Part shown: positions 26,262 through 48,068 of the stretch, one piece after another | How the letters are laid out: each line of letters begins with the position of its first letter | Position numbering within the stretch: the stretch's first letter is position 1 | Translations under genes and position numbers: made by a program | NCBI RefSeq assembly: GCF_014023275.1 | Contig: NZ_CP054698.1 | Location: 6,967,001 to 7,031,000 of the forward strand | Direction of reading: 5' to 3' | Length of the DNA: 64,000 nucleotides | Source of the DNA: Nostoc edaphicum CCNP1411 | GTDB lineage: Bacteria; Cyanobacteriota; Cyanobacteriia; Cyanobacteriales; Nostocaceae | Notes under the pieces: model-generated | Database searches by the model: none | Seen by the model: only the letters and a program-made list of their open reading frames with translations | Told to the model about the DNA's origin: nothing

Positions 26262-26293
26262 ATTACAAAAGTTAATCATTGCAGGATAAAATT

Positions 26294-27157: not shown

Positions 27158-27214
27158 AATTAGATATTAAGACAAACTCCTTAGCCATTCTGAAACTCAA
27201 GGTTAATTGAAAAT

Positions 27215-27460
27215 ATGTCAGAAACACAAGCAAAAATTAGAGAATTTTTAGCCCGATTTTTCCGTAATCATGATTTGCAGTTAGATGAAGATATCTTTGC
27301 ACTTGGTTTTGTCAATTCCATGTTTGCTATGCAACTTGTCTTATTTATCGAACAAGCATTTCAAATTACTATTGACAATGAAGACCTGGATCTTGATAAC
27401 TTCAGAACTATAAATTCTATGACTCATTTAATTGAGCGGAAAACAGCTTTAGTTGCATAA
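27215..27460 (+). CDS. Free-standing acyl carrier protein for hydroxymalonyl (FkbJ/ZmaD-like)
   Basis: An 81-residue carrier protein. The phosphopantetheine serine is in GFVNSMFAMQLV, the variant motif (NS instead of DS) seen in FkbJ/ZmaD-type ACPs; helix 1 (KIREFLARFF) and the acidic loop after it fit an ACP fold. It should hold the glyceryl group delivered by the FkbH-like enzyme while it is oxidised to hydroxymalonyl. The flanking genes are its expected partners. Confidence 0.9.
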   Translation: MSETQAKIREFLARFFRNHDLQLDEDIFALGFVNSMFAMQLVLFIEQAFQITIDNEDLDLDNFRTINSMTHLIERKTALVA

Positions 27461-27511
27461 AAATGAGTCAATATAAAACTTACAATCATTTTCACCAAAT
27501 AAGTAATCATC

Positions 27512-28693: not shown

Positions 28694-28697
28694 GAAT

Positions 28698-29768: not shown

Positions 29769-29806
29769 AAAGCATTGCTAGTTCTTGTAGTTTGACAAGG
29801 GGGATT

Positions 29807-32800
29807 ATGGATATAAAAAAAGATGAAATTTTAAAACGACGGTCAAAGCTTTCACTCGCTCAACAGGAGCTTCTCAAAAAGCGATTGCGGGGTGAAGTTG
29901 ACTCTCACTCTCAATTAGAGGTTATTACAAAACGTTCTCAAATAAGTCCTGCTCCCCTATCCTTTGCCCAACAACGGCTGTGGTTTCTCCAACAGTTAGA
30001 TCCCGATAATCCTTACTACTGTGAACTAGCATGTGTACAGCTGGTAGGTGCGCTGAATGTAGATGCGTTAGAGCGAAGTCTGAACGAGATTGTGCGACGC
30101 CATGAAGCGTTACGTACTACTTTTGAAATACTCGAAGAACAAGCAATTCAGGTTATTCATCCGACTGTAACTGTGACACTGCAACTGGTGAATTTGCTCT
30201 CGATGCCAGAAGCTGACCGACATGCAGAAGTTGAGCGGTTAACAACAGAAATAGCTGAAAAACCTTTTGATTTAGTAACTGGCCCGTTGCTGCAAGTCAT
30301 GCTGCTACAAACAGGTGTCGAAGAATACTTGCTGCTGTTCACGATTCACCACATTGCTGTTGATGGTTGGTCTATAGGAGTGTTAATCCGTGAATTAGCA
30401 GTACTCTATGAAGCCTTTTCCACCAGCAAAACATCTCCCCTCCCTGATATTGCTATTCAATACGCAGACTTTGCTATTTGGCAGCGTCAGTGGCTACAAG
30501 GCGAATTACAAAAGACGCAACTTAATTATTGGAAGCAACAATTGGCTGATGCTTCTACTTTGGCTTTGCCCACAGATCGCCCACGGCCGGCAGTCCAAAG
30601 CTTTCGAGGCGCAATTGCTTCTTTTGAGTTATCAGCAAGCCTAACTGATATGCTCAGATCCCTGAGCAATCGGGAAGGAGTAACTTTGTTTATGACGCTA
30701 CTAGGAGCATTTCAAGCTTTACTGTGCCGTTATACAGGGCAAGAAGATATTTGTGTTGGCTCCCCAATTGCTAACCGCAACCAAGGTGAGATTCAAGGGC
30801 TGATTGGTTTTTTTGTAAATACCCTTGTGCTGCGGACTCATCTTTCTGGTAATCCAAGTTTTTTAGAATTGTTGAATAGAGTGCGCGAGGTATGCGTGGG
30901 TGCATACGCTCATGCAGATATACCTTTTGAGCAATTGGTGGAAGAACTTCATCCAGATAGAAATCTCAGTCAGATGCCCTTGTTTCAGGTGATGTTTGCC
31001 TGGCAAGAAGACACTCAAAAGGAACTAACACTACCTGGTTTGACTCTGAATTGGCTCCCGACGCACGGCCAGACTGCTAAATTTGATTTAACGCTGCATC
31101 TAGTAGACGCACAGCCAGAGTTGCGGGGGTTTTTAGAATATAATACCGACTTGTTTGATGCTGAAACCGTTATTCGGATAGTAGAGCATTTTCGTAATTT
31201 GCTAGAGGGGATTGTTGCAAATCCACAAGCAAGATTATCTGACTTACCACTATTGACGGCTGAAGAGTTACATCAGCAGCTAGTGGAGTGGAATAACACT
31301 CAGGTTGAATATCCTGAACAACAATGTATTCATCAGTTGTTTGAAGCGCAAGTAGAACACACACCTGATGCGATCGCAGTAGTATTTGAAGATAAACAAC
31401 TAACCTACCGCGAACTGAATGCTAGAGCCAATCAACTAGCGCACTATCTGAGAAAGCTGGGAGTAAAATCAGAGGTACTGGTAGGGATTTGTGTGGAGCG
31501 ATCGCTCGATATGGTCATCGGTCTATTAGCCATCCTCAAAGCAGGTGGTGCTTATGTACCTCTAGACCCTGGTTATCCCTTAGAAAGAAAAGCTTTTATA
31601 CTCAACGATTCTCAAATGCCAGTGCTGCTGACTCAACAGCATATAATGGCAGATTTAGCTACAAATGGAATTAAAGTAATTTGTATAGATACTGATTGGC
31701 AAACTATCAATCAACAAAAAAATGAAAATCTAATTACTACAACAACTGAATTAAATTTAGCCTACATTATTTACACATCAGGTTCGACTGGTAAACCCAA
31801 AGGAACTTTAATTACCCATCAAGGATTAGTTAATTACTTGAGTTGGTGTACCCAAACATATTCAGTAAAACAAGGAGTAGGAACTTTAGTTCATTCACCT
31901 TTGGGTTTTGACTTAACAATCACCAGTCTTTTTCCACCTTTATTAGTTGGTCGTACAGTAGAATTACTATCAGAAAAACAAGGCATCGAAGCCCTTGATA
32001 AAGCTTTAAAGAAAAGCTCAAATTTAAGTTTGGTGAAAATTACCCCCGCGCACTTAGATTTGCTTAAGCAACAGTTATCTAAGGAAGAGATAGCAAATAA
32101 AACTAGAGCTTTTATTATTGGCGGCGAAAATTTATTAGCTCAAAGCATCACCTTCTGGCAAGATGTAGCTCCAGGTACAATATTAGTAAATGAATATGGG
32201 CCTACAGAGACAGTAGTTGGTTGCTGTATTTATCAGGTTCCAGTCGGTAAACATTCTACAGGGTCTATACCCATTGGTAAAGCGATCGCTAATACCCAGT
32301 TGTATATTTTAGACCAATATTTGCAACCAGTACCAATGGGAGTACCGGGTGAATTGCATATTGGTGGAGTTGGACTAGCCAGAGGTTATTTAAATCAAGC
32401 TGAATTAACAGCCCTTAAGTTTATTCCCAATTACTTCAGCGATAAGAAGGGCGACCGCCTTTATAAAACAGGTGATTTAGCCCGCTATTTACCAAGTGGA
32501 GATATTGAATATATAGGTAGAATTGACAACCAAATAAAAATTCGAGGATTTCGCATTGAACTTGGAGAAATTGAAGCAGTTATCACTCAATACCCCGCAG
32601 TGCGAGAAACTATTGTTGTAGTACGCTCAGATTTAGCAGATTCTCAACGGATAGTTGCATATATAGTGCCTCAAAAAGATCAAATACTGACAATTTATGA
32701 ACTACGGAGCTTCTTGGAGTCGAAGTTGCCAGACTACATGATACCAGCAACTTTTGTCACATTAGAAGCACTACCACTCACACCCAATGGTAAAGTTGAC

Positions 32801-34540
32801 CGTAAAACACTACCTGCACCAGATACAGCACGTCCAGAACTCGAAAAAGCTTTCATCGCACCTCAGACAAGCGTTGAAAAACAATTGGCTGTTATTTGGA
32901 CACAAGTACTAGGTTTAGAAAAAGTAGGTATAAACGACAACTTTTTTGAATTAGGAGGGGATTCTATCCTCAGCCTTCAAATAATATCTAAAGCAAACCT
33001 TGCGGGGCTGCACCTAACTCCTAAGCAATTATTTCAACACCAAACCATAGCTAAACTAGCTGCTGTCGCTGGCACAATTCAGAAAATTTCAGCAGAACAA
33101 AACCTAATCACTGGTTCGCTAGAGTTAACACCTATTGAGCATTGGTTTTTTGAACAAGAGCAACCAGAACCGCACTACTGGAATCAAGCGGTAATGCTAG
33201 AAGTCAAAAAGCGCATTAACCCTATAGTTTTAGAAAAAGTAGTAGAAAATTTACAAAAGCATCATGATGCGCTACGTTCACGATTTATAAAAAATGAATT
33301 AGGTCTTCAAGCGATTATAGTCAGTCCTGACAATGTAATACCAACAACATATTTAGACTTGTCAGCACTACCAAAAGATCAACAAGTGGCACAGATGGAA
33401 GCAATGTCGGTTCAGCTACAAGCCAGCTTGAACTTGACACAAGGCCCATTATTTAGAGTTGCTCTTTTTGACCAGGGTGCAAATCAACCAAGTCGCTTAC
33501 TTTGGGTGATTCATCACTTAGTGGTTGATGGAGTTTCTTGGCGAATTTTAATAGAAGATTTTCAAACAGCTAAAGAGCAAATTTGTCAAGACAAAGCACT
33601 ACAACTGCCACTTAAAACAACTTCTCTTAAGCAGTGGTCTAGTTATCTACAAGAATATGCACAATTGCCTGCATTACGTTCGGAGCTAGAATACTGGCTG
33701 GCAATAAAGCAACAACCTGTTAGACCTATACCCATAGATTTTAGTTATGGGAACAATCTAGAAAAATCAGCTTGTACTTTGACTGTATCGCTGAATGAAC
33801 AAGAAACTCAAGTTTTATTGCAACAGCTGCCAGCGGTATATCAGACGCAAATTAATGATGTGTTGTTAACTGCACTTGTGCAAATATTTAGCCAATGGAC
33901 AGGAGAAACTTCATTACTAATTGACTTAGAAGGGCATGGTCGAGAAGAACTATTCGAGGATGTAGATTTATCGAGGACTGTGGGTTGGTTCACAACTATC
34001 TTCCCGGTACATCTGAGTCTTGACAGTGCTTTCGACTCGCCAGGAAAAGCCCTCAAATCAATTAAAGAGCAGCTAAGAACGATTCCAAATCGAGGTATTG
34101 GTTATGGAGTCTTGCGCTATCTCAGTGGAGATATGGAAATTAGGAAACAATTCAGTTGTTTGCCAAAAGCTGAAGTGGTTTTTAATTATCTAGGACAGTT
34201 TGACCAAGTTTTACCAGAATCGTCTTTATTTGGCTTTGCTAACGAATCAAGCGGTTTCAGTCGTAGTTTGCGAAGTCAACGAACTCACTTGCTGGAAGTT
34301 AACGGTGGTATTTCTCAAGGACGCCTGCAAATCAACTGGACTTACAGCAATCAGTTGCATCGGCAAAGCACAGTTGAAATTCTTGCTCAAGGGTTTATTG
34401 AGGCATTGCGATCGCTAATTATTCATTGTCAATCTCCCGATGCAGGAGGCTTTACTCCTTCCGATTTCGCAGATTTTCAGCAAAGTCAATGGGATCAAAG
34501 GGATCTTGATGCCATTACAGCAGCTATAGGAGATATTTAA
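29807..34540 (+). CDS. NRPS2: C - A(Asn) - PCP - E
   Basis: A single module of 1577 residues. The condensation domain has HHIAVDG near 181. The A domain (core IIYTSGSTGKPKG near 656) gives the hand-read code D-L-T-K-I-G-E-V-G-(K), as for asparagine. The PCP has LGGDSILSL near 1051, the GGDS form typical before epimerases, and the E domain has HHLVVDGVSWRIL near 1235 and RTVGWFTTIFPV. The residue added should therefore be D-Asn. The short N-terminal lead (SLAQQELLKKRLRGE) is a probable acceptor for the acidic tail of PKS2. The C-terminus (DLDAITAAIGDI) resembles a COM donor helix and the next gene starts one base after the stop. Start ATG 29807 has AGGGGG just upstream; an in-frame TTG occurs at 29792. 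Confidence 0.93.
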   Translation: MDIKKDEILKRRSKLSLAQQELLKKRLRGEVDSHSQLEVITKRSQISPAPLSFAQQRLWFLQQLDPDNPYYCELACVQLVGALNVDALERSLNEIVRRHEALRTTFEILEEQAIQVIHPTVTVTLQLVNLLSMPEADRHAEVERLTTEIAEKPFDLVTGPLLQVMLLQTGVEEYLLLFTIHHIAVDGWSIGVLIRELAVLYEAFSTSKTSPLPDIAIQYADFAIWQRQWLQGELQKTQLNYWKQQLADASTLALPTDRPRPAVQSFRGAIASFELSASLTDMLRSLSNREGVTLFMTLLGAFQALLCRYTGQEDICVGSPIANRNQGEIQGLIGFFVNTLVLRTHLSGNPSFLELLNRVREVCVGAYAHADIPFEQLVEELHPDRNLSQMPLFQVMFAWQEDTQKELTLPGLTLNWLPTHGQTAKFDLTLHLVDAQPELRGFLEYNTDLFDAETVIRIVEHFRNLLEGIVANPQARLSDLPLLTAEELHQQLVEWNNTQVEYPEQQCIHQLFEAQVEHTPDAIAVVFEDKQLTYRELNARANQLAHYLRKLGVKSEVLVGICVERSLDMVIGLLAILKAGGAYVPLDPGYPLERKAFILNDSQMPVLLTQQHIMADLATNGIKVICIDTDWQTINQQKNENLITTTTELNLAYIIYTSGSTGKPKGTLITHQGLVNYLSWCTQTYSVKQGVGTLVHSPLGFDLTITSLFPPLLVGRTVELLSEKQGIEALDKALKKSSNLSLVKITPAHLDLLKQQLSKEEIANKTRAFIIGGENLLAQSITFWQDVAPGTILVNEYGPTETVVGCCIYQVPVGKHSTGSIPIGKAIANTQLYILDQYLQPVPMGVPGELHIGGVGLARGYLNQAELTALKFIPNYFSDKKGDRLYKTGDLARYLPSGDIEYIGRIDNQIKIRGFRIELGEIEAVITQYPAVRETIVVVRSDLADSQRIVAYIVPQKDQILTIYELRSFLESKLPDYMIPATFVTLEALPLTPNGKVDRKTLPAPDTARPELEKAFIAPQTSVEKQLAVIWTQVLGLEKVGINDNFFELGGDSILSLQIISKANLAGLHLTPKQLFQHQTIAKLAAVAGTIQKISAEQNLITGSLELTPIEHWFFEQEQPEPHYWNQAVMLEVKKRINPIVLEKVVENLQKHHDALRSRFIKNELGLQAIIVSPDNVIPTTYLDLSALPKDQQVAQMEAMSVQLQASLNLTQGPLFRVALFDQGANQPSRLLWVIHHLVVDGVSWRILIEDFQTAKEQICQDKALQLPLKTTSLKQWSSYLQEYAQLPALRSELEYWLAIKQQPVRPIPIDFSYGNNLEKSACTLTVSLNEQETQVLLQQLPAVYQTQINDVLLTALVQIFSQWTGETSLLIDLEGHGREELFEDVDLSRTVGWFTTIFPVHLSLDSAFDSPGKALKSIKEQLRTIPNRGIGYGVLRYLSGDMEIRKQFSCLPKAEVVFNYLGQFDQVLPESSLFGFANESSGFSRSLRSQRTHLLEVNGGISQGRLQINWTYSNQLHRQSTVEILAQGFIEALRSLIIHCQSPDAGGFTPSDFADFQQSQWDQRDLDAITAAIGDI

Positions 34541-34541
34541 C

Positions 34542-37500
34542 ATGGGCGTGAAAAACAAAAACATTGAAGATTTTTATCCTCTCTCGCCCATGCAGCAAGG
34601 TATTCTCTACCATAGTCTTGCAGCCCCCAAATCTGACAAGTATTTTGAACAATTTAGCTGGACTCTCCAAGGAAAACTTAACATTACAGCGTTCCATCGC
34701 GCATGGCAGCATGTTGTAGAGCGCCATTCAATTCTGCGAAGCTGCTTTGTTTGGGAAGGCTTAAAAGAACCAGTACAAATTGTGCATCGACAGGTAACTC
34801 TACCCTGGGAAGAGTATAATTGGCAACAGTTATCACCGGATGAACAACAACAAAAATTAGAGGTTTTTTTACAGAGCGATCGCTCTGGTGGTTTTGAACT
34901 TACGCAACCACCATTGATGCGCTTAACACTGGTTCAACTTTCAGATACATCCTATAACTTTACTTGGAGTCATCATCATCTGTTACTAGATGGGTGGTCT
35001 GTTGCTCTAATTTTTAAGGAAGTTCTTGCTTGTTACAAAGCTTTCAAAAATGGTGAAGACTTATACCTAGAACCTATTCGCCCCTATCGCGATTACATTG
35101 TCTGGCTACAACAACAAAACCTATCTGTGGCTGAGACTTTTTGGCGAGAGACGCTTAAAGGTTTTACGACTCCAACATCGCTGTGGGCAGATCAAAGAGC
35201 GGGAAAATCACTGACTTCAGAAGATGACTATGCCGAACAAAAAATTCAACTTTCAGCAGTCACAACCATAGCATTGCAATCTGTAGCACAGCAGCATCAA
35301 CTAACGCTAAATACTTTGATACAAGGAGCTTGGGCTTTGCTGTTAAGCTGCTACAGTGGTCAAGCAGATGTAGTTTTCGGGGCAGTAGCTTCTGGCCGTC
35401 CCCCAACTTTAGCTAAAGCTGAGTCTATGGTAGGACTGTTTATTAATACACTACCAGTTAGAGTAAAAGTCTCGCCTGAAGAATTTCTTCTACCTTGGCT
35501 GCAAAAAATTCAGACTCAATTACTTGAAGCGCGTCAATACGAATATAGTCCCTTAGTAAAAGTCCAAGGATGGAGTGAAGTTCCTAAAGGTTTCGCTCTG
35601 TTCGAGAGTATAGTAGTTTTTGAGAACTATCCTGTAGATGCTTCCGTAAAAGAGAGGGATATAAATTTTGAGATAGAGGATTTTCATAGCTTTGAAAGGA
35701 CTAACTATCCCATAACCCTAAGTGTGATTCCAGGTAAAGAGTTATTATTTAAGATTACTTACGATGATAGCGATCGCTCCGATACCATTGCCCGAATGCT
35801 AGGACATTTGCAGACTTTGCTAGAGGGTATGGTTACTAATCCACAGCAGCGCCTTTGTGAATTCTCGCTGTTAACGTCAACTGAACTACATCAGTTGCTT
35901 GTGGAGTGGAATGATACTCAGGTTGAATATCCTCAACAGCAATGTGTTCATGAATTGTTTGAAGCGCAAGTAGAAAAAACACCCGATGCAGTAGCAGTAG
36001 TATTTGAAGACCAACAGTTGACCTACCGCGAACTCAACACCAAAGCAAATCAATTAGGGCATTATTTGCGATCGCTAGGAGTAAAACCAGAAGTATTGGT
36101 GGGGATTTGTGTAGAGCGATCGCTCTCTATGGTCATCGGGCTATTGGCAATCCTGAAAGCTGGTGGTGCATACATCCCATTAGACCCTAGTTATCCCCAA
36201 GAGCGATTGGCGTTTATACTCAAAGATGCCCAAGTGCCAGTACTCCTAACTCAAGCCTCCCTTGTGGAAGCAATGCCACAACACGAAGCTAAAGTTGTTT
36301 GTTTAGATACAAATTGGCAGACGAATACTGACGAAAGGTTACGCCAACGAGACGGAGACGCTGCGCGAACGCCGAACGCTGACAACGTAGTTTATGTCAT
36401 CTATACTTCTGGTTCAACAGGTAAACCAAAAGGCGTACAAATTCCCCACAGCGCTTTGAGCAACTTTTTGTACTCCATGAGGCAAAGACCAGGGTTAACC
36501 CAAGAAGATACCTTACTAGCAGTCACAACATATTCCTTTGATATTGCGGCGTTAGAAATTTTTCTGCCAATCGTAGTTGGTGGTCGTTTGGTAATCGCTA
36601 GTCGGGAAGTATCCTTAGACGGAACACAGTTGTCAGCAAAACTGCAAGAGTCAAAAGCTACAGTCATGCAAGCCACACCAGCTACTTGGCAAATGCTTTT
36701 AACAGAAGGCTGGAGTGGCAATGATCAATTAAAAATTCTTTGTGGTGGAGAAGCTTTACCCGAATACCTAGCCAATCAATTATTGCATCGGTGTGCTTCT
36801 TTGTGGAATATGTATGGCCCCACAGAAACCACCATCTGGTCGGCAGCATCTCAGGTAGAAAGAGACAGCAAGGTTGTAGCAATTAGCCACCCGATTACGA
36901 ATACGCAATTTTACATCCTCGACCAATACAGTCAGTTAGTCCCTGTAGGTGTAGCAGGCGAATTGCACATCGGTGGAGATGGACTTGCACGAGGCTATTT
37001 CAACCGTCCCAACCTCACAGCAGAAAAATTTATCCCCAATCCCTTTAGCAAAAAAGCTGCGCGTCTTTATAAAACTGGGGATTTAGCCCGCTATTTACCC
37101 AATGGAGAAATAGAGTACATTGGTCGCATTGACCACCAAGTAAAAGTCCGTGGTTTCCGCATTGAACTTTTAGAAATTGAAGCAGTAATTAACCAATACC
37201 CAGAGGTGCGAGAAAGTGTGGTTATAGCTAGAGAAGACTCCTCTGAAGGGAAGTCCTTGGTAGCTTATTTAGTGCAGAACCCAGAACATCAGGGAGCGGG
37301 TAAGGAAACGGCGAAATTGCAAACTGAGCAAATTTCACAGCGGCAAATATTACCGGGGCTACGCAACTTTTTAGAGTCGAAGTTGCCAAGCTACATGGTG
37401 CCAAGTGCTTTTGTGATGTTAGAAGCGCTACCACTCACACCCAATGGCAAAGTTGATCGGAAAGCGCTACCAGCACCTGATATTAGTAGATCCTATCTAG

Positions 37501-40172
37501 AAAAAGTTTTTGTCGCACCTCAGAATCCATTTGAAGAAGTGGTAGCTGGCATTTGGGTTCAAGTTCTGAATCGGGAACAAATAGGTATTTATGACAATTT
37601 CTTTGAGTTAGGCGGGCATTCATTGTTGGCGACACAAGTAATTTCTCGCATAAATAAAGCTTTCGAGATAAATCTATTGCTCCATCGCTTATTTGAGTCC
37701 CCGACAGTGGCTGAATTAGCCAAAACTATCCAGGAGGTGATCAAAGCAGAATTGGGCCAACAGCCTCCCACTATTGGGCGCGTCTCTAGAGTCAAAAATC
37801 TACCTCTTTCCTTCGCTCAAGCTAGACTATGGTTGCTGGAGCAATTACAACCAGGCAGCGCTATTTACAACATACCAATTGCCGTGCGCTTCGTTGGTTT
37901 CTTGAATGTGACTGCACTGGAGCAAGCTTTTGCTGAAATCGTATATCGTCATGAAGCCTTACGTACTACCTTCCATCTGGTAGATGGACAACCCTTTCAG
38001 GCGATCGCTTCCAGCCTAAAAGTTAGACTACCAGTAGTGGATTTGCGGGAATTGCCAGAAGCACAGAGAGAAGCTCTTGTTCAACAACTAATCATAGAAG
38101 AATCGCAACGCTGCTTTGACTTAGTTCAAGGCCCATTACTAAGATGCACTCTCCTGCATATTCACGAGCAAGAGTATATAGTATTGTTCACCATCCACCA
38201 TATTGTTTCAGATGGCTGGTCAATGGGCGTGTTTGTTCAGGAATTAGTAGCGCTGTATGAAGCCTTCTCTGCTGGAAAACCCTCCCCGCTTCCAGAATTG
38301 ACTATTCAGTATGCAGACTTTGCAGCGTGGCAACGACAGTGGTTGCAGGGTGAGGTTTTAGAAACCCAACTCGCCTATTGGAAGAAGCAATTAGCTAATC
38401 TCCCTGTAATGAAATTGCCGACAACTCGTCCCCGTGCCGAAGTGAAAACTAATCTAGGTGACACTTCATCTTTTTTAATTCCCGCCAAAGAGTTCAAAGC
38501 ACTGCAAGCACTCTCGCGTCAAGAGGGTGTCACTTTGTTCATGACTCTGCTGGCAGGTTTTCAAGTGTTGCTACAACGCTATACAAATCAGGATGACATC
38601 GTTGTAGGTACTGATGTCGCTAACCGTAACCAACCTGAGACTGAGTCATTAATTGGATTTTTTGTCAACCTACTTGTTTTACGCACTGATCTTGCTGGAA
38701 ACCCCAGTTTTCGAGAGTTACTTAAACGAGTGCGCCAGGTAGCATTGGGAGCATACACTCATCAAGATTTGCCCTTCGATCAATTGGTGAAGGCATTGCA
38801 ACCAGAGCGGAATTTGAGCAACACACCCTCACTATTTCAGGTGTTATTTGTCCTTCAGAATGCTCCGATGCCACCATTAGAATTGCCAGGACTGACATTA
38901 AGTTTATTGGAGGTTAAAAACGAAATAGCAAAGTTTGATTTAGCACTATTTCTGACAGAAACAGATCAAGGTATCGTCGGAAACTGGCAATACAATGCTG
39001 ACCTTTTTGAAACCAGCATTATCACTCGCATGACAGATCACTTCAAGAGGTTACTCAATAGTATTATCTCCGAACCTGATGCCCGAATCAACAGTCTAGA
39101 AATGCTGACTGAAGCTGAAAACAAGCAACAAACTATGCAAAAAAAAGAGCGGAAAGCTTTCAATCGAGAAAAATTTATTAGTATTGCTCCCAAGGCTGTC
39201 ACCCTATCACCAGAAAAATTAATTAAGACATCCTATCTGCAAACTGGGCAAACATTTCCTCTAGTAATTCAGCCTGATACTGACGAGATTGATTTGGGAG
39301 ATTGGGCTAAAACAAACCGGAGGTTTATAGAGACAGAATTGTTAAAACACGGAGCTATTCTATTTAGAAATTTCCATGTAAATTCCGTTTCGGTATTTGA
39401 AAGCGTTGCTCAAGGGATTTGTCCAGAATTATTTAGTGAATATGGCGATTTACCCCGTGCTGTAGAAGGGAGCAAAGTTTATGGCTCTACTCCTTATCCA
39501 GCCGATAAAGCTATCCTCTTCCATAATGAAAGCTCTCACTTACATTGCTGGCCTTTAAAAATTTGGTTCTTCTGTGTACAACCAGCACAACAAGGTGGAG
39601 AAACGCCAATTATTGACTGTCGCAAAGCTTATCAAATACTCAATCCCCAGTTGCGAGAAAAATTAGCTGAAAAACAATTAATGTACGTCCGCAACTACAC
39701 CGATGATTTAGATGTAAGCTGGCAAGACTTTTTTCATACTAATGATAAATCTGTAGTAGAAAATTACTGTCGGCAGGCTAGAGTTACTTGTGAATGGTAT
39801 GATAATAATAGTTTAATAACTCGTCAAATTCGTCCGGCGATCGCAGTACATCCAAAGACAAGTGACAGAGTATTTTTCAATCAAATCCAGTTACATCACA
39901 TCGCCTATTTAGATGTAGGAGTTCGAGAATCTTTGTTGTCTTTATTTGGAGAACAAAGGCTACCACGTAATGTTTATTATGGTGATGGAACTTCTATAGA
40001 AGACTCAGTTATTGCAGAAATTAATGAAGTTTATCATCAGGCAGAAACTAGCTTTCCTTGGCAGCAAGGAGATATTTTGATGCTAGATAATATGCTGGCT
40101 GCACACGGACGCTATCCTTATGTAGGGCAACGCAAGATTGTAGTGGCGATGGGGGAAATGATTTGTAGTTGA
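34542..40172 (+). CDS. NRPS3: C - A(Gly) - PCP - C - TauD/SyrP-type oxygenase
   Basis: A 1876-residue protein with one full module and half of the next. The first C domain starts FYPLSPMQQGILYHS, the pattern of C domains that accept a D-residue after an epimerase, with HHHLLLDG near 144. The A domain (IYTSGSTGKPKG near 621) has the hand-read code D-I-L-Q-L-G-M-I-W-(K), glycine-like. The PCP is LGGHSLLAT near 1024 and the second C domain has an intact HHIVSDG near 1218. The last 310 residues form an Fe(II)/2-oxoglutarate oxygenase of the TauD superfamily: HNE near 1660 and the distal His in AAHGRYPYVGQRK near 1854 are the iron ligands. Its likely substrate is the Asp on the next protein's PCP, giving beta-hydroxy-Asp. 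A repeat insertion lengthens the A domain. Confidence 0.92.
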   Translation: MGVKNKNIEDFYPLSPMQQGILYHSLAAPKSDKYFEQFSWTLQGKLNITAFHRAWQHVVERHSILRSCFVWEGLKEPVQIVHRQVTLPWEEYNWQQLSPDEQQQKLEVFLQSDRSGGFELTQPPLMRLTLVQLSDTSYNFTWSHHHLLLDGWSVALIFKEVLACYKAFKNGEDLYLEPIRPYRDYIVWLQQQNLSVAETFWRETLKGFTTPTSLWADQRAGKSLTSEDDYAEQKIQLSAVTTIALQSVAQQHQLTLNTLIQGAWALLLSCYSGQADVVFGAVASGRPPTLAKAESMVGLFINTLPVRVKVSPEEFLLPWLQKIQTQLLEARQYEYSPLVKVQGWSEVPKGFALFESIVVFENYPVDASVKERDINFEIEDFHSFERTNYPITLSVIPGKELLFKITYDDSDRSDTIARMLGHLQTLLEGMVTNPQQRLCEFSLLTSTELHQLLVEWNDTQVEYPQQQCVHELFEAQVEKTPDAVAVVFEDQQLTYRELNTKANQLGHYLRSLGVKPEVLVGICVERSLSMVIGLLAILKAGGAYIPLDPSYPQERLAFILKDAQVPVLLTQASLVEAMPQHEAKVVCLDTNWQTNTDERLRQRDGDAARTPNADNVVYVIYTSGSTGKPKGVQIPHSALSNFLYSMRQRPGLTQEDTLLAVTTYSFDIAALEIFLPIVVGGRLVIASREVSLDGTQLSAKLQESKATVMQATPATWQMLLTEGWSGNDQLKILCGGEALPEYLANQLLHRCASLWNMYGPTETTIWSAASQVERDSKVVAISHPITNTQFYILDQYSQLVPVGVAGELHIGGDGLARGYFNRPNLTAEKFIPNPFSKKAARLYKTGDLARYLPNGEIEYIGRIDHQVKVRGFRIELLEIEAVINQYPEVRESVVIAREDSSEGKSLVAYLVQNPEHQGAGKETAKLQTEQISQRQILPGLRNFLESKLPSYMVPSAFVMLEALPLTPNGKVDRKALPAPDISRSYLEKVFVAPQNPFEEVVAGIWVQVLNREQIGIYDNFFELGGHSLLATQVISRINKAFEINLLLHRLFESPTVAELAKTIQEVIKAELGQQPPTIGRVSRVKNLPLSFAQARLWLLEQLQPGSAIYNIPIAVRFVGFLNVTALEQAFAEIVYRHEALRTTFHLVDGQPFQAIASSLKVRLPVVDLRELPEAQREALVQQLIIEESQRCFDLVQGPLLRCTLLHIHEQEYIVLFTIHHIVSDGWSMGVFVQELVALYEAFSAGKPSPLPELTIQYADFAAWQRQWLQGEVLETQLAYWKKQLANLPVMKLPTTRPRAEVKTNLGDTSSFLIPAKEFKALQALSRQEGVTLFMTLLAGFQVLLQRYTNQDDIVVGTDVANRNQPETESLIGFFVNLLVLRTDLAGNPSFRELLKRVRQVALGAYTHQDLPFDQLVKALQPERNLSNTPSLFQVLFVLQNAPMPPLELPGLTLSLLEVKNEIAKFDLALFLTETDQGIVGNWQYNADLFETSIITRMTDHFKRLLNSIISEPDARINSLEMLTEAENKQQTMQKKERKAFNREKFISIAPKAVTLSPEKLIKTSYLQTGQTFPLVIQPDTDEIDLGDWAKTNRRFIETELLKHGAILFRNFHVNSVSVFESVAQGICPELFSEYGDLPRAVEGSKVYGSTPYPADKAILFHNESSHLHCWPLKIWFFCVQPAQQGGETPIIDCRKAYQILNPQLREKLAEKQLMYVRNYTDDLDVSWQDFFHTNDKSVVENYCRQARVTCEWYDNNSLITRQIRPAIAVHPKTSDRVFFNQIQLHHIAYLDVGVRESLLSLFGEQRLPRNVYYGDGTSIEDSVIAEINEVYHQAETSFPWQQGDILMLDNMLAAHGRYPYVGQRKIVVAMGEMICS
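36331..36382. repeat. Dispersed repeat inserted in the NRPS3 adenylation domain
   Basis: The bases reading GAAAGGTTACGCCAACGAGA and onwards resemble a common Nostoc repeat (TTACGCCAACG). The encoded RLRQRDGDAARTP has no counterpart in NRPS2 or NRPS4 and lies in the variable loop just before the A3 motif. The frame is kept. Confidence 0.55.
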
Positions 40173-40201
40173 AAATGTTGAACATATTATAAATAAAGTC
40201 T

Positions 40202-43200
40202 ATGTATACTAAAACTGTCAGCGGATTTCAGCTTTCTCCTTTACAAAAGCGTCTTTGGTTATTACAGCAATATAATTCAACTTATTGTACTCAATGTGCT
40301 ATTTTTCTTGAAGGCAATCTTAAACCAGAGGTTTTAAAAGCCGCTTTCCAACAAGTCATCAATCGACATGGAATTCTTCGGACAAGCTTTCGTCGCTTGT
40401 CAGGTATCAAAGTTCCAGTCATGGTTATAGCAGAGAGTAGTGTTCTGGTATGGCACGAAATCAATCTGAGTGATTGTGAACCACAGGAACAAGAAGCTAA
40501 ATTTGAAGCTACTTTTAAACAACAGAGACACCAAAATTTCGACTTTGAGCAAGATCCCCTCTTGTCTGCATCTCTACTAACGCTGTCACTAGATAAATAT
40601 ATTTTAATAATCAGTTTACCTTCCCTTTGTGCTGATACCTGGACACTCAAAAACTTAGTAGCTGAAATCAGCTATTCATACTCTGCTTGCTTAGAAAGTG
40701 AAATAGTATCAGAAGAAGTTGTACAATACCTCCAATTCTCAGAATGGCAAAATCAATTGCTCGAAGATGAGAATGCGGAAATAGCTCATAAATATTGGCA
40801 AGAGCAAAAGTTGCCTTCCCAAACTATATTAAGACTGCCTTTTGAAAGCCACCCTGCAAAACAAACAGAATTCCAGCTTGACTGTTTTCGATTGACGATC
40901 GCACCTGATGTCACAGCAAAGGTTGCAACACTAGCTAGAAAGCATAATACTTCAACGGCTGTAGTTCTACTAGCCTGTTGGCAAACCCTAATTTGGCGAC
41001 TCACTGGAGAGTCAGAAATGATCATTGGTATGGCTGGCGATCGCAGGGAGTATGAAGAACTCCATGAAGTACTAGGACTGATTGCCACCTGGATTCCCAT
41101 TAAAAGTCAACTCACACCAGACTTATGCTTCCAAGAACTCTTAAAACTTAACGAAAACACCCTAAATAATAATACAGAATGGCAAGATTATTACACTCCT
41201 GAATCTGTAGGGAATGACAACGATTTGGTATTTCCCATTGGTTTTGAGTTTGAGCAACTACCCGAAAAACATTTTGCTAATGGTGTGTCATTTTCGCTGG
41301 AAAAATACTATAGCTGTATTGAGCCATTTAAAGTTAAACTCACTTGTACTCAGCATGGTGAAACTTTAAATGCAGAATTTTACTATGATGTCAATTATTT
41401 CTCACCTGATAGTATTCAACGTTTAGCTGGACATTTTCAAACTTTATTAAATCATGCTACGAACAATCCAGATAAAAAAATTAGTCAATTAGATATAATC
41501 AGTAAAAGCGATCGCCAACAATTACTAGTTGAGTTTAATCAAACGCAGATTGATTATCCAAAAGACAAATGTATACACCAGCTTTTTGAAGAACAAGTAG
41601 AAAAAACACCTAACAATATTGCTGTTGTATTTGAAGATCAGCAACTAACATACACAGAGCTTAACCGCAAAGCTAATCAACTAGCTCGTTACTTACAAAC
41701 ATTGGGAGTCAAGCCGGAAGTTATAGTTGGGCTGTGTGTAGAGCGATCGCTCGAAATGATTATCGGACTTTTGGGCATCCTCAAGGCTGGTGGAGCATAC
41801 TTACCACTAGACCCAACATTACCAAAGGAAAGTCTTGATTTCCGGTTGCAGGATGCTCAAGCGTCATTGGTGATTAATTTAGACACTGATTGGAACATCA
41901 TTGCTCAGTACGACGATGATAATCCCAACAGTGAGGTAACTACTGAGAATTTAGTCTATGTAGTGTTTACCTCTGGTTCCACTGGCAGACCAAAGGGAGT
42001 AGCCATTGAACACCAGCAACTAGTTAATTACCTCAATAGCATCACAGAAAGATTAAATCTACCCACAGCAGCTAACTTCGCTAGTGTTTCTACCTTAGCC
42101 GCAGACTTGGGTAACACCGTTATCTTTCCTTCTCTTTGTACAGGTGGCACTCTGCATATCATATCCTCCCAGCGAGTTGCTGACTCAGCAGCCTTAGCTG
42201 AATACAACCGCCAACATTCCATCGACTGCCTGAAAATTGTCCCCTCCCACCTTGCCAGTCTCCTAGCATCCGCTCCATCCCAGTCCATTCTGCCTCGCCA
42301 AAGACTGATCCTGGGAGGTGAAGTTGCAACTTGGGATTTAATCGAGCAGATTCAGCAGCAAGCACCAGATTGCTTAATCTTCAATCACTACGGCCCAACA
42401 GAAGCTACCGTAGGTGTTACTACCTTTGCCGTTCAGAATAACCAAGCTAGTCATAATTCAAAAACAGTTCCACTAGGTCGTCCACTGGGGAATATACAGA
42501 TTTATCTGTTAGATCAGCAGCTGCAACCCGTACCCATTGGTGTGCCAGGTGAATTGTATATCGGTGGAGCCTCTTTAGTTCGGGGTTATTTAAATCGGCC
42601 CGAACTAACCGCAGAGAGATTTATAACCAACACCTTTGGAAATTCAAAATGCGATCGCCTTTACAAAACTGGTGACTTAGCACGTTACCTACCTGATGGC
42701 AACATTGAATTTATCGGACGGCTAGATAATCAGGTAAAAATCCGGGGCTTCCGGATTGAACTCTCCGAGATTGAGACGGTGCTGTGTCAGCATCCAGAAG
42801 TACAACAAGCTGTAGTTTTGCTGCGAGAAGACAAGCGGTTGATTGCCTATATTGTTCCTAAGCAAAAACAGACACCCAGTGTTAGTAATATGCACAGGTT
42901 TCTGAGAGAAAAACTGCCGGAATATATGATGCCCTCGGCTTTCGTGATCCTCAAGGCGCTGCCACTAATGCCAAATGGCAAGGTGAACCGCAGTGCGTTA
43001 CCAGAGCCAGATGGTTATCGCCCAGAATTAGAAGCAACTTATCAGCCACCTCAAACAGAGATAGAAGAAGCGATCGCTATTATCTGGCAAGAGGCGCTGA
43101 ATGTGCAAAAAGTTGGTATTAATGATAACTTTTTTGAACTCGGTGGACATTCATTACTCATTGTGCAAATTCATAGCAAACTGAGACAACTTTTTAATCA

Positions 43201-43366
43201 AGATTTATCCATAACTGATTTATTTGAACATCCTACTATCAGTTCTTTAGTAAAGTTCTTGAGTCCAGAAAAAAGCGAAGAATCTTCTTTAGAAGAAAGC
43301 CATAACAGAGCGAAAAGTCGGATGAATGAAAGACAACTAAGAACACAGTTTCGGCAAAAACTTTAA
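40202..43366 (+). CDS. NRPS4: degenerate (interface-type) C - A(Asp) - PCP
   Basis: A 1054-residue protein. Its N-terminal 440 residues fold as a condensation domain by sequence pattern (FQLSPLQKRLWLLQQ; RHGILRTSF), but HHxxxDG is replaced by PSLCADT near 140, so both catalytic histidines are gone and condensation is unlikely. The A domain (FTSGSTGRPKG near 589) has the hand-read code D-L-T-K-I-G-H-V-G-(K), aspartate-like. The PCP is LGGHSLLIV near 981. Together with the preceding C-TauD half, this matches the arrangement of 'interface' domains that partner aspartate beta-hydroxylases in siderophore synthetases. A basic tail (RAKSRMNERQLRTQFRQKL) precedes PKS3. Confidence 0.92.
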   Translation: MYTKTVSGFQLSPLQKRLWLLQQYNSTYCTQCAIFLEGNLKPEVLKAAFQQVINRHGILRTSFRRLSGIKVPVMVIAESSVLVWHEINLSDCEPQEQEAKFEATFKQQRHQNFDFEQDPLLSASLLTLSLDKYILIISLPSLCADTWTLKNLVAEISYSYSACLESEIVSEEVVQYLQFSEWQNQLLEDENAEIAHKYWQEQKLPSQTILRLPFESHPAKQTEFQLDCFRLTIAPDVTAKVATLARKHNTSTAVVLLACWQTLIWRLTGESEMIIGMAGDRREYEELHEVLGLIATWIPIKSQLTPDLCFQELLKLNENTLNNNTEWQDYYTPESVGNDNDLVFPIGFEFEQLPEKHFANGVSFSLEKYYSCIEPFKVKLTCTQHGETLNAEFYYDVNYFSPDSIQRLAGHFQTLLNHATNNPDKKISQLDIISKSDRQQLLVEFNQTQIDYPKDKCIHQLFEEQVEKTPNNIAVVFEDQQLTYTELNRKANQLARYLQTLGVKPEVIVGLCVERSLEMIIGLLGILKAGGAYLPLDPTLPKESLDFRLQDAQASLVINLDTDWNIIAQYDDDNPNSEVTTENLVYVVFTSGSTGRPKGVAIEHQQLVNYLNSITERLNLPTAANFASVSTLAADLGNTVIFPSLCTGGTLHIISSQRVADSAALAEYNRQHSIDCLKIVPSHLASLLASAPSQSILPRQRLILGGEVATWDLIEQIQQQAPDCLIFNHYGPTEATVGVTTFAVQNNQASHNSKTVPLGRPLGNIQIYLLDQQLQPVPIGVPGELYIGGASLVRGYLNRPELTAERFITNTFGNSKCDRLYKTGDLARYLPDGNIEFIGRLDNQVKIRGFRIELSEIETVLCQHPEVQQAVVLLREDKRLIAYIVPKQKQTPSVSNMHRFLREKLPEYMMPSAFVILKALPLMPNGKVNRSALPEPDGYRPELEATYQPPQTEIEEAIAIIWQEALNVQKVGINDNFFELGGHSLLIVQIHSKLRQLFNQDLSITDLFEHPTISSLVKFLSPEKSEESSLEESHNRAKSRMNERQLRTQFRQKL

Positions 43367-43388: not shown

Positions 43389-46300
43389 ATGAAAAACAAT
43401 TTAGAGGCTTCAGAAATTTTTAATGAGATAGCCATTGTAAGTATAAATGGGCGTTTCCCAAAAGCCAAAAACCTTGATGAGTTTTGGCATAATTTACAGA
43501 ATGGGGTGGAATCAATTTCAGTTTTTTCAGATACAGAACTGGAGTCTGCGGGTGTAGACAAAAGTACCCTAAATAACCCTAACTATGTTAAAGCAAACGC
43601 TGAACTGGAAGATGTAGAATTATTTGATGCTTCATTCTTTAATTATTCTCCCAGAGCGGCAGAACTCATCGATCCGCAGCAACGCATTTTCTTAGAAGTT
43701 GCTTGGGAGGCCCTTGAAAGTGCTGGCTACAATTCTGAAACCTATGAAGGTAGAATTAGTGTTTATGGTGGAGCCAGCGTTAGCAGTTACTTTTTATTCA
43801 ATATTTTTTCTAACCCTGAATTAATAAAACTTGTTGGTTTTGACGAAATTAGACATAGTAATCGTCCAGATAACTTAGCTACACGAGTCGCCTATAAATT
43901 AAATCTAAATGGTTCAGCAATCACTGTCCAAACCGGTTGTTCTACTTCATTAGTCGCTGTACATTTAGCCTGTCAAAGTTTGCTAGATCGTGAATGCGAT
44001 CTGGCCTTGGCGGGTGGAGTTTGCATATCTGGAGCAGAAAAAGCTGGCTATTTTTATCAAGAAGGGGGAATTTTGTCTCCCGATGGACATTGCCGTGCCT
44101 TTGACGCCAAGGCAAAGGGAACTGTCATCGGTAAAGGTGTAGGGATTGTAGTCTTAAAGCGATTAGAAGATGCGATCGCTGATGGAGATTGTATTCACGC
44201 TATTATCAAGGCTTCAGCGATTAATAATGATGGCTCTAAAAAAGTTGGCTACACAGCTCCCAGTGTCGATGGTCAAGCTCAGGTAATTGCCGAGGCTCTT
44301 GCCGTAGCGAGGGTGAAATCCGACATGATTAGTTATGTAGAAGCTCATGGAACCGGAACTGCTCTCGGAGATCCGATTGAAATTGCAGCGCTAACCAAAT
44401 CTTTTCGTGCTACCACTGACAAAAAAGGTTTCTGCGCTATTGGTTCGGTAAAGACAAACATTGGACACTTAGATACTGCGGCTGGGATTGCGGGTTTAAT
44501 CAAGACAGTTCTGGCGCTCAAACACCAGCAAATACCACCTAGTTTGCACTTTCAGCAGCCCAATCCCCAGATAGATTTCACCAACAGCCCATTCTATGTT
44601 AATAACAAGCTTTCAGAATGGAAATCGAACGGACAACCTCGACGCGCTGGGGTTAGTTCTTTCGGAATTGGTGGCACTAATGCTCATGTAATTCTGGAAG
44701 AAGCCCCAATTCTGGAACCATCTAGTCCTGGACGCTCACAGAATTTATTGGTAATTTCAGCCAAAACTAGCTTTGCACTAGAAACTGCCACAACAAACTT
44801 AGTTAACCACTTAAAGCAGCATCCTCAACTCAACTTGGCAGATGTCGCTTACACCCTTGGAGTGGGTCGTCAAGCCTTTGAACATCGCCGAATCGTGGTT
44901 TGCCAAGACATTGACGATGCAGTGAAAGTTTTAGAAATCCAAGAGCCACAAAGGGTCTTCAGCCACTTCACCGAACCTAGTGGGCGACAAGTTATATTTA
45001 TGTTTCCTGGTCAAGGGGCCCAGTATGTGGAGATGGGTGAAGAACTCTACCAAAATGAGCCAATTTTCCGAAAACAGGTTGATTATTGTGCAGAATTACT
45101 CAAATTCTCCATCGGAATAGACCTACGCAATATTCTATATCCCAGCAAAGAGCAAGCAACAGCAGCAGTGCAGCAGCTGACGCAGACTTATATTACCCAA
45201 CCAGCCCTATTTGTCATTGAGTATGCCCTAGCTCAGTTGTGGATGTCATGGGGATTGCATCCTGAAGCCATGATTGGTCATAGCATTGGCGAGTATGTAG
45301 CAGCTTGTCTTGCTGGCGTATTCTCTCTAGAAGATGCATTGGCACTGGTAGCAGCGCGAGGAAAACTAATGCAGCAGATGCCCTCTGGGGATATGTTAGT
45401 AGTGCCTCAATCTGAGGAAGAAGTGCAATCTTGGCTAGGCGAAGAACTTGCCCTAGCTGCAATTAACGGGCCATCTTTGTGCGTAGTTTCGGGATCAAAA
45501 TTGGCAATTGATCAGTTGCACAATAAATTAACTAAGCAAGGGATTAATTGTCGCCGTCTGCATACTTCTGGTGCTTTTCATTCCCAGATGATGAACCCAA
45601 TCATCGAGCCGTTCATGGCACTGGTAGAAAAAATCAACCTCAAAGTTCCCCAAATTCCTTTTATTTCCAACGTCACTGGTACATGGATTACAAACGAGGA
45701 AGCAACTGATCCCAGCTATTGGGCAAAGCATCTACGGCAGACTGTGCGCTTTGCTGAGGGAATTACTGAGTTGCTGCAACAGCCAAAGCGAATCCTGCTG
45801 GAAGTTGGACCAGGACGGACATTAAGTACTTTAGTTAGACAGCATTCAGAACAACCTGCTCAACCGATTGTGTTTTCTTCCTTGCGCCATCCCCAAGAAC
45901 AACAGTCGGATATTGCCTTTTTGCTCAACATACTGGGTAAACTCTGGCTTGCTGGGTTAAAAATAGATTGGTCTAGCTTTTACGCGACTGAACGTCGTCA
46001 CCGCATCCCCTTACCGACGTACCCATTTGAGCGACAAAGATACTGGGTTGAACCACAATCATCAAATGCCCTTGTGACTGCGCCCCAAAAAGCGTTACAC
46101 AAAAAGCCAAATATTGCTGAGTGGTTCTACATCCCAGTTTGGAAACAGTGCAGATTACTTGAGTCTGTTGAAAATACAGAACTGTCAAAACAGAAATTGT
46201 GTTGGTTAGTCTTTGTAGATAAATGTGAAGTGGGTTCACTCCTTGTAAAACGTCTCCAACAGCAAGGGCAAGACGTGATTACTGTAAGCTTAGGAGAGCA

Positions 46301-48068
46301 GTTTACCAAACTGTGCGAGTGTCCTACAGACAGGCTTCGCCAACGCGCTTATTCCATCAACCCTCAACAGAAAGATGACTATGAAGCCTTGTTCCAAGTT
46401 CTTCGTAGCCAAGATTTGATGCCACAAATGATTGCTCATTTATGGGGAATTACGCCAAGCAATCAGACATCTTCAGGAATTGATTCATTGGCAACAAGTC
46501 AGACTGTTGGCTTTTACAGCTTACTTTTTCTGAGTCAAGCACTTGGACAACAAAGTATTACAGATGCCCTGCAAATCCTAGTTGTGACTAACAACATACA
46601 CGATGTGACTGGTGAGGAAAACCCATGCCCCGAAAAGGCAACGGTACTAGGGCCATGCAAAGTAATCCCCCAAGAATATCCGAATATTACTTGCCGCAAC
46701 ATTGATATTGTGATTCCTGAATCTGTAATATCGCAACAGGAGAAATTGATCGATCAACTAATAGCAGAATTTACAACCAAGCCAACTGACTCAGTAGTTG
46801 CTTATCGTAAGCATCATCGCTGGATTCAAACATTTGAACCAGTCTCCTTAGAAGAGGCTGGCCCAGAGAAAGCCCGATTACAGCAAGGGGGAGTCTACCT
46901 AATTACAGGTGGCTTGGGAGGTATTGGTTTGACACTAGCAGAATATCTGGCCAAGACAGTGCAAGCTAAACTAGTGTTGATATCACGTTCTGGTCTTCCG
47001 AAAGCAGATGAGTGGGAAAAATGGCTAATAACTCATGATGAGCAAGACCCTGTAAGCAAGAAAATCAGAGCAGTGCAGGTGTTAGAAGGGTTAGGTGCTG
47101 AGGTTTTAGTAGAGAAGGCAGATGTCGCTAACCTTGAACAAATGCAGTTAGCGATCGCATCAGTAACTAAGCGCTTTGGTAAAATTCATGGTGTCATCCA
47201 TGCCGCCGGAATTGCTGGGGGAGGCATTATGCAACTAAAAACGCCCCAAGTAGCGGCAAGTGTTTTAGCTCCCAAAGTCCAAGGAACATTAGTCCTTGAC
47301 AGCATCTTCAAGGACGTTGAATTAGATTTCCTGATCCTTTGTTCTGCCTTAAGTTCAGGCTCAATTCTGGGTAGATTTGGGCAGGTAGACTATTGTGCTG
47401 CTAATGCTTTTCTTGATGCCTTTGCTCACTGCAATACCTCCAGGCGTACTACGTTCACCCAATCTATTAACTGGGGTGCTTGGCAAGAGGTCGGAATGGC
47501 AGTGAATACAGGAGCGGTGAACGAAGAATTAAAGAAAGAACGTGAAGAATACCTTAAAGAAGGAATAGCACCTCAAGAGGGTGTTGATGCATTTAGCCGC
47601 ATTCTCCAAAGTAGACTACCTCAAGTTGTTGTATCAACACGAGATATCCAGCCTCAAATTCAGCAGAGTAATTCTTTCAAGTTTATAGAAGAGGAATTGG
47701 CATCAGCAAGTCTACCTCAAGTACTCCATTCTCGCCCCAAGTTGGGGAATGATTATATCCCTGCTCGGAACAAGGTAGAGCAAATAATCACTAACATCTG
47801 GCAACAAATCCTTGGTATTCAACAAGTAGGTATTCATGACAACTTTTTTGAGTTGGGAGGAAATTCTCTAATTAGTGTTCAAATTATTTCTAAGTTAAAA
47901 GAAGAATTAAATATTGAGATTCCTATCGTCAGTATTTACGAAAGACCAACTATAAATTCTCTTGCCGAAATTCTCAGTTCTGATGCCAACGAAATCAATC
48001 ATTTTGAGCAAAATAAGTCTCGTGGAGAAAAACGCAGACAGAAAAAATTACAGCAACAGCGTCATTAG
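43389..48068 (+). CDS. Type I PKS module 3: KS - AT (GAFH variant) - KR - ACP
   Basis: A module of 1559 residues. KS: Cys184 in TGCSTSL, EAHGTGT, NIGHLD. AT: GHSIGEY near 632, but the specificity/catalytic motif is GAFH instead of the HAFH of the other intact ATs; the second His, the catalytic one, is retained. KR: intact TGGLGGIG near 1174, and VDYCAAN near 1334, so active. The ACP reads GGNSLISVQ near 1488. The tail is basic (EKRRQKKLQQQRH). GGAG lies six bases before the ATG. In order, it extends the beta-hydroxy-Asp residue. The altered AT motif makes this one of two candidates for using hydroxymalonyl-ACP. Confidence 0.92.
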   Translation: MKNNLEASEIFNEIAIVSINGRFPKAKNLDEFWHNLQNGVESISVFSDTELESAGVDKSTLNNPNYVKANAELEDVELFDASFFNYSPRAAELIDPQQRIFLEVAWEALESAGYNSETYEGRISVYGGASVSSYFLFNIFSNPELIKLVGFDEIRHSNRPDNLATRVAYKLNLNGSAITVQTGCSTSLVAVHLACQSLLDRECDLALAGGVCISGAEKAGYFYQEGGILSPDGHCRAFDAKAKGTVIGKGVGIVVLKRLEDAIADGDCIHAIIKASAINNDGSKKVGYTAPSVDGQAQVIAEALAVARVKSDMISYVEAHGTGTALGDPIEIAALTKSFRATTDKKGFCAIGSVKTNIGHLDTAAGIAGLIKTVLALKHQQIPPSLHFQQPNPQIDFTNSPFYVNNKLSEWKSNGQPRRAGVSSFGIGGTNAHVILEEAPILEPSSPGRSQNLLVISAKTSFALETATTNLVNHLKQHPQLNLADVAYTLGVGRQAFEHRRIVVCQDIDDAVKVLEIQEPQRVFSHFTEPSGRQVIFMFPGQGAQYVEMGEELYQNEPIFRKQVDYCAELLKFSIGIDLRNILYPSKEQATAAVQQLTQTYITQPALFVIEYALAQLWMSWGLHPEAMIGHSIGEYVAACLAGVFSLEDALALVAARGKLMQQMPSGDMLVVPQSEEEVQSWLGEELALAAINGPSLCVVSGSKLAIDQLHNKLTKQGINCRRLHTSGAFHSQMMNPIIEPFMALVEKINLKVPQIPFISNVTGTWITNEEATDPSYWAKHLRQTVRFAEGITELLQQPKRILLEVGPGRTLSTLVRQHSEQPAQPIVFSSLRHPQEQQSDIAFLLNILGKLWLAGLKIDWSSFYATERRHRIPLPTYPFERQRYWVEPQSSNALVTAPQKALHKKPNIAEWFYIPVWKQCRLLESVENTELSKQKLCWLVFVDKCEVGSLLVKRLQQQGQDVITVSLGEQFTKLCECPTDRLRQRAYSINPQQKDDYEALFQVLRSQDLMPQMIAHLWGITPSNQTSSGIDSLATSQTVGFYSLLFLSQALGQQSITDALQILVVTNNIHDVTGEENPCPEKATVLGPCKVIPQEYPNITCRNIDIVIPESVISQQEKLIDQLIAEFTTKPTDSVVAYRKHHRWIQTFEPVSLEEAGPEKARLQQGGVYLITGGLGGIGLTLAEYLAKTVQAKLVLISRSGLPKADEWEKWLITHDEQDPVSKKIRAVQVLEGLGAEVLVEKADVANLEQMQLAIASVTKRFGKIHGVIHAAGIAGGGIMQLKTPQVAASVLAPKVQGTLVLDSIFKDVELDFLILCSALSSGSILGRFGQVDYCAANAFLDAFAHCNTSRRTTFTQSINWGAWQEVGMAVNTGAVNEELKKEREEYLKEGIAPQEGVDAFSRILQSRLPQVVVSTRDIQPQIQQSNSFKFIEEELASASLPQVLHSRPKLGNDYIPARNKVEQIITNIWQQILGIQQVGIHDNFFELGGNSLISVQIISKLKEELNIEIPIVSIYERPTINSLAEILSSDANEINHFEQNKSRGEKRRQKKLQQQRH

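Follow-up and report, generated by a model that had tools for sequence, protein, structure and literature searches.

Interface-associated aspartate beta-hydroxylase systems, as described by Reitz et al. in 2019, reportedly pair a TauD-family hydroxylase with a condensation-fold domain that lacks the HHxxxDG motif and with an Asp-specific adenylation (A) domain. We find the same domain pairing in Nostoc edaphicum CCNP1411 (host genome 8.3 Mb), on the forward strand of a 64,000-nucleotide stretch (contig NZ_CP054698.1, positions 6,967,001 to 7,031,000; hereafter the window, whose own numbering we use), where open reading frame (ORF) calls, Pfam and NCBIfam outline a polyketide synthase/nonribosomal peptide synthetase (PKS/NRPS) cluster. 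The closest described counterpart is the cyanochelin B pair CcsFGH and CcsI (Leptolyngbya sp. NIES-3755, AP017310, BAU16013 and BAU16012): as in the window, one protein ends in a condensation (C) domain and TauD; the next is a PALCADT-A-PCP protein (PCP, peptidyl carrier protein), where the window has PSLCADT. Identity to the window proteins is 48.8% over 1896 aa for CcsFGH and 47.5% over 1041 aa for CcsI, and in an excerpt of PMC12628792, beta-OH-Asp 4 of cyanochelin B is attributed to CcsI, which comes after the NRPS-fused hydroxylase CcsFGH. Related cases are potashchelin, whose PtcB carries a C-terminal TauD said in part of PMC7100376 to act on the Asp of the adjacent module, and variochelin, whose VarG has an embedded TauD domain (excerpt of PMC10999976); unlike the window system, these two are proteobacterial lipopeptide siderophores. 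The relevant features of the window are:

34542 to 40172, + strand: NRPS of order C-A-PCP-C-TauD (Pfam), upstream half of the split module; A code DILQLGMIW
37797 to 39131, + strand: second C domain of that ORF, with an intact HHIVSDG at 38196-38216 (Pfam, motif); in the tree it stands with the LCL-like rows
39279 to 40148, + strand: TauD/SyrP-type Fe(II)/2-oxoglutarate hydroxylase domain, with HNE at 39522 and the distal HGR...R at 40104-40136
40202 to 43366, + strand: NRPS of order degenerate C-A-PCP (Pfam), downstream half of the split module
40229 to 41527, + strand: degenerate condensation-fold domain of interface type, PSLCADT (40619-40639) replacing HHxxxDG (Pfam, motif, trees)
41585 to 42982, + strand: A domain, code DLTKIGHVG (Pfam, code)
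43070 to 43261, + strand: carrier domain, LGGHSLL (Pfam, motif), the expected site of Asp hydroxylation

The two ORFs (1876 and 1054 aa) share the strand but not the frame and are separated by 29 bp. Pfam finds two Condensation stretches, AMP-binding, PP-binding and TauD in the first, the TauD match (145.5 bits) covering residues 1580-1869 and leaving 7 residues before the protein ends, and Condensation (227.6 bits, residues 10-442), AMP-binding and PP-binding in the second. The initial annotation, made from the sequence alone, had described a TauD oxygenase (HNE...H) closing one polypeptide after an intact C domain, a C-like domain with PSLCADT for HHxxxDG opening the next, and an Asp-type A domain behind it, and all three descriptions hold. 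The four A codes of the window are, in order, DVGEIGSID, DLTKIGEVG, DILQLGMIW and DLTKIGHVG, with code positions placed by means of core motifs and inspected by eye in an LgrA alignment; we take them to read Orn, Asn, Gly and Asp, the last matching the DLTKxGHxG type of Asp-activating domains.

From sequence-based evidence, we consider this very probably a cyanobacterial interface-type beta-hydroxy-aspartate module split over two proteins. Judging by its code, the A domain of the downstream protein would load Asp onto its own carrier, where its beta carbon would be hydroxylated by the TauD domain that closes the upstream protein. Lacking the active-site His, the degenerate C domain would form no peptide bond and may instead serve as a platform on which TauD meets the carrier. 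Condensation of the (Asn-Gly) peptide from upstream with hydroxy-Asp would then fall to the intact C domain that precedes TauD, after which the chain would pass to the PKS at 43389.

To see whether a partnership reaches across the two proteins, we ran a mirror test on the tree distances of four domains: TauD, the C domain upstream of it, the degenerate domain and the A domain that follows. The pairs came from a first survey, which sampled 386 genomes of the phylum and gave 28 with a TauD match at E<=1e-30; the 54 listed TauD matches, all used, and plasmid records yielded 68 TauD/downstream C-A pairs. The test kept 53 of these and dropped 15 for an HHxxxD in the candidate, a missing upstream C or a cut A domain (one of these, L070, was lost to a crude motif filter, its motif reading SAICSDR once aligned). 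With three proteobacterial pairs left out (n=50, all cyanobacterial), the partial correlation was 0.57 for TauD vs the degenerate domain (0/1000 permutations), 0.27 for TauD vs C (0/1000) and 0.13 for TauD vs A (18/1000); with those three included (n=53), the values were 0.48, 0.25 and 0.15. Separating the fused and free hydroxylase types takes one change in each of the trees of TauD, degenerate domain and C, and nine in the A tree, with L064, a fused copy of the free type, counted by its clade. C, TauD and degenerate domain tend to be co-inherited and A domains exchanged, though the degenerate domain and A share one chain and TauD sits on another. The proposed partnership across proteins gains from this shared history, which supports contact between TauD and the interface domain but is no proof of it, because the pairs have common ancestry and whole clusters move together.

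Physical docking did not emerge from structure prediction. Because the window ORFs are in different frames, we used a relative (L137) in which TauD and the degenerate domain could be linked by reading a single stop as Gln, aligned with 66 other rows, 8 of them likewise joined. The linked model had a predicted local distance difference test score (pLDDT) of 81 and a predicted template modeling score (pTM) of 0.59, by our estimate about that of two unplaced domains. The linker scored below 50 pLDDT over most of its length, as did some of the region around the TauD active site, so that the model speaks neither for nor against docking. Other points count against our reading. Within the fused subset (n=23), TauD correlates at 0.45 with the degenerate domain, 0.34 with C and 0.09 with A, and the bootstrap difference between degenerate domain and C was <=0 in 163/500; within the free subset (n=26), the value for the degenerate domain (0.42) is close to that for A (0.45), with C at 0.12. 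The free TauDs L065 and L073 stand beside the fused clade, but their degenerate domains belong with the free type, a misfit that slightly lowers our confidence. In 7 of the 79 degenerate-domain loci of a second survey (below), the ORF before the degenerate-domain protein ends in C and no TauD was detected close by.

Some of these points would suit a different arrangement: the target of TauD would be its own upstream module or the peptide after release, with the degenerate domain serving some other purpose such as gating or positioning of the acceptor. The covalent joining of TauD to the upstream protein, the seven loci and the lack of docking in the predicted structure all lean that way, but TauD co-segregates with the degenerate domain, free TauD genes mostly still lie between the C-ending ORF and the degenerate-domain ORF, and the upstream A code of the window is Gly-like, Gly having no beta carbon; we regard this arrangement as unlikely.

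The assignment of the PSLCADT domain to the interface type rests on 228 condensation-type domains, with subtype labels assigned by context. Their sources were the window, the plasmid of cyanochelin B, TauD loci of cyanobacteria and another 20 plasmid loci, of which 17 are non-cyanobacterial. In the tree of these domains, a single clade of 55 rows (SH-like support 99) takes in all 47 cyanobacterial domains that were classed as degenerate, along with six motif-less proteobacterial domains, two domains without letters at the motif and no HHxxxD row at all, a clustering that makes the motif loss more than chance. The long proteobacterial branches leave the exact positions of those rows unsure. A 41-row mixture-model tree likewise places 14 degenerate domains on one side of a branch (SH-aLRT 99). 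As the initial annotation had supposed, the window domain groups with domains beside TauD hydroxylases and not with LCL-like ones. It has the condensation fold without HHxxxDG, it belongs to a clade apart from the LCL-like rows, and it lies directly downstream of a TauD with which it shares its history and which it may contact. Could it nevertheless be an ordinary LCL domain that recently lost its active site and has no link to the hydroxylase? It does have the C fold and stands straight before an A domain like any C, but forcing it among ten LCL-like rows was rejected by the approximately unbiased (AU) test (p-AU 5.4e-7), as was forcing eight cyanobacterial degenerate rows there (p-AU 4.2e-5); these p-values are not blind, the LCL-like rows being the clade with the window's ordinary C domains, picked by hand after the tree was seen. 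Given also the single clade of 47 and the second, intact C already in place before TauD, we find such a recent loss very improbable.

Fold comparison is less informative. The degenerate domain alone is predicted with a pLDDT of 88.9 and a pTM of 0.88, and so many C-fold chains tie as matches that no subtype is picked; the X domain of glycopeptide NRPSs (4tx2/4tx3), which recruits P450s, is equalled or outscored by many other C-fold chains. None of the 50 solved-structure sequences matched by the degenerate-domain profile is named as an interface domain, and of the two matched by the hydroxylase profile, one, 9yut, is named just 'TauD/TfdA-like'. Neither an interface domain nor an Asp hydroxylase is named among the best 25 of the 104-105 NCBIfam families for each of the two proteins. 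Interface-domain profiles do exist in antiSMASH 8, according to an excerpt of PMC12230676. Residues 1-450 of the downstream protein are 97% identical to a Nostoc commune protein.

The initial annotation had suggested that the chain break between hydroxylase and interface domain marks out this case, which the relatives do not support: the break is not unusual and is present in all pairs examined. In the first survey, the downstream domain lacked HHxxxD in 57/68 pairs (28 with fused and 29 with free TauD), 0/57 of these had both partners on one ORF, and no single-ORF fusion of TauD to a downstream C-A was seen in any of the 68. The second survey, a profile scan of genome contigs that kept 80 of 380 relatives, overlaps the first in genomes and added 62 TauD copies new by sequence. 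The degenerate domain was found in 79/80 loci (one of the 79 near a contig edge) and was the first domain of its ORF in 79/79; TauD lay <=4.5 kb upstream in 71/79 (60 fused to C, 11 free) and on the same ORF in 0/71. Across both surveys, we saw no relative with TauD and the degenerate domain on one chain. Searched with home-made profiles, 0/143 TauD copies were followed by a C, A, PCP or TauD domain in the same ORF, some of these ORFs ending at the edge of the stretch, and PF02668 is absent from the best 120 of 896 homologues of the downstream protein. That the break is a local accident, a frameshift or recent gene fission in this genome, could be suspected from the mere 29 bp between the ORFs, but its presence in 57/57 pairs and in 71/71 of the overlapping scan, with cyanochelin B and proteobacterial plasmids included, makes this next to impossible.

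The surveys also turned up variants. At the seven loci of the second survey where an interface-type protein comes directly after a C-ending ORF and the upstream stretch examined holds no TauD (L146, L148, L170, L177, L187, L188 and L195), the hydroxylase may act in trans or belong to another family. In one strain (L053/L132), a stop interrupts the fused C-TauD frame, leaving TauD as a separate 269 aa ORF with the interface-type ORF still next. In L098 and L099 (Gloeothece and Trichormus), TauD and the interface-type gene are separated by an annotated SAM methyltransferase gene, and several other loci have gaps of ~0.8-1.2 kb at this position.

Both protein ends at the junction are nearly bare. 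At 101 TauD/degenerate-domain junctions, a median of 6 residues follows TauD and 6 precede the degenerate domain, compared with 34 and 48 at 55 PCP/C junctions, 24 and 7 at 43 C/C junctions, and 27 and 6.5 at 8 C/degenerate-domain junctions that lack TauD. These boundaries come from home-made profiles, of which the TauD profile runs near the protein end; counted instead from the last catalytic His-Arg motif, 17 residues remain in fused copies (10-33, n=81) and 15 in free ones (7-27, n=54). By sequence length, there would be little room at the TauD end, and a usual docking helix would hardly fit. Alongside the shared history, this bareness favours a partnership between the two proteins. For this reason we keep the tentative idea, somewhat less probable than not in our judgment, that the TauD/interface contact is itself the docking joint of the two synthetase subunits in place of the usual docking helices; it would explain both the bare ends and a break at the same place in all pairs examined. 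We found no treatment of this junction in the parts of the open-licence literature that our searches returned. The architecture itself is already published for cyanochelin B; what we add is the regular recurrence of the break, the co-inheritance across it and the bareness of the junction. The survey makes it testable whether interface domains recruit the hydroxylase across a protein junction and hold subunits together instead of docking domains.

A tree of the hydroxylases agrees with the cyanochelin B comparison. Among 81 TauD rows (supports are FastTree local values), the window TauD falls in a clade of 28 (27 fused, 1 interrupted; local support 99) that includes CcsFGH. Three fused TauD domains from Variovorax, Azospirillum and Janthinobacterium are nested within it, and three other fused TauDs lie outside: Bradyrhizobium L090 with proteobacterial rows, L064 with free hydroxylases and L099 alone. 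The phylogeny suggested by the initial annotation also separates the window TauD from the Tistrella copy (a 209 aa reading frame), which is placed elsewhere and which we take, by strain and plasmid, to be MobD. Excerpts of PMC10391617 name MobD as TbetaHAsp and describe a GGDSI motif in TbetaHAsp carriers; the window carrier reads GGHSL, and neither in tree position nor in carrier does the window system resemble that type. The carrier motif alone does not separate the types, interface-type carriers in both surveys being GGHS in 103 cases and GGDS in 31 (duplicates kept). Cyanobacterial hydroxylases have been given names of their own, CyanoBH_Asp1 and CyanoBH_Asp2 (excerpt of PMC12971057). As for stereochemistry, part of PMC12628792 predicts L-threo beta-OH-Asp where a fused hydroxylase precedes a module without an epimerization (E) domain, which would fit the window module; we make no firm stereochemical claim, the papers differing: the VarG domain is given an erythro product in an excerpt of PMC10999976, and separate sections of PMC7100376 give fused hydroxylases both assignments. 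The three nested proteobacterial TauDs (L083, L087 and L095) have local support 97-99 for their place inside the cyanobacterial fused clade, as if transferred.

The 57 modules with a degenerate domain and an upstream TauD carry 40 Asp-type and 5 Asn-type A codes, 2 reading DATKVGEVG, 7 reading DSALIAEVW and 3 that are incomplete. The seven DSALIAEVW modules (L075, L077, L088, L108, L110, L112 and L114; six of them cyanobacterial) stand beside free TauD genes, and the code, which we take to be His-like, suggests candidate beta-hydroxy-histidine modules in cyanobacteria. Interface domains as a class go with either Asp or His beta-hydroxylases of the TauD family. A literature search for hydroxyhistidine in cyanobacterial siderophores matched PMC12971057 alone.

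The remainder of the window cluster, all on the + strand, consists of:

from 8802: FAAL-ACP-C-A-MT-PCP (fatty acyl-AMP ligase, acyl carrier protein, methyltransferase), the cluster start, with A code DVGEIGSID
from 15677 and from 20343: two PKS modules
26279 to 29768: 3HCDH, acyl-CoA dehydrogenase and FkbH genes, which look to us like alkoxy- or hydroxymalonyl extender-unit genes
29792 to 34540: NRPS of order C-A-PCP-E, A code DLTKIGEVG (Pfam, TIGR01720), upstream of the split module
43389 to 48068: PKS module KS-AT-KR-ACP (ketosynthase, acyltransferase, ketoreductase), downstream of the split module
43389 to 63909: PKS modules, the preceding one among them, and a PanP-like decarboxylase

Past the window end follow a C-A-PCP-TE protein (TE, thioesterase), two P450s, a TonB receptor, two periplasmic binding proteins and an ABC transporter. 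The cyanochelin B cluster has another module order and other accessory genes, so that this is not the same assembly line or product: the window cluster starts with an Orn-like/MT module, includes FkbH-type extender genes and has a long PKS tail, whereas cyanochelin B, in the excerpted account, combines a stand-alone second hydroxylase with a thiazoline derived from methylcysteine. The TonB receptor and the two periplasmic binding proteins just downstream suggest a siderophore-like product, which would group a Nostoc-type PKS/NRPS cluster, with a TonB receptor gene next to it, with the probable pathways to (photoreactive) beta-hydroxy-aspartate siderophores. This class is not certain, because such hydroxylases also occur in non-metallophore peptides (excerpt of PMC12971057).

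Three further genes deserve mention. Just past the window, after the two P450 genes, lies a 292 aa TauD-family gene (L010:9978-10856) that scores only 72 bits with the Asp-hydroxylase profile and is not closely related; it was excluded from the trees. Among the PKS genes, 52877-54529 encodes a PanP-type pyridoxal-dependent aspartate 1-decarboxylase (624 bits, over the NCBIfam cut-off), which we presume could provide beta-alanine. In the PKS at 54645-59138, the AT covers only positions 1-127 of the 319 of its Pfam profile, unlike the window's other PKS modules.

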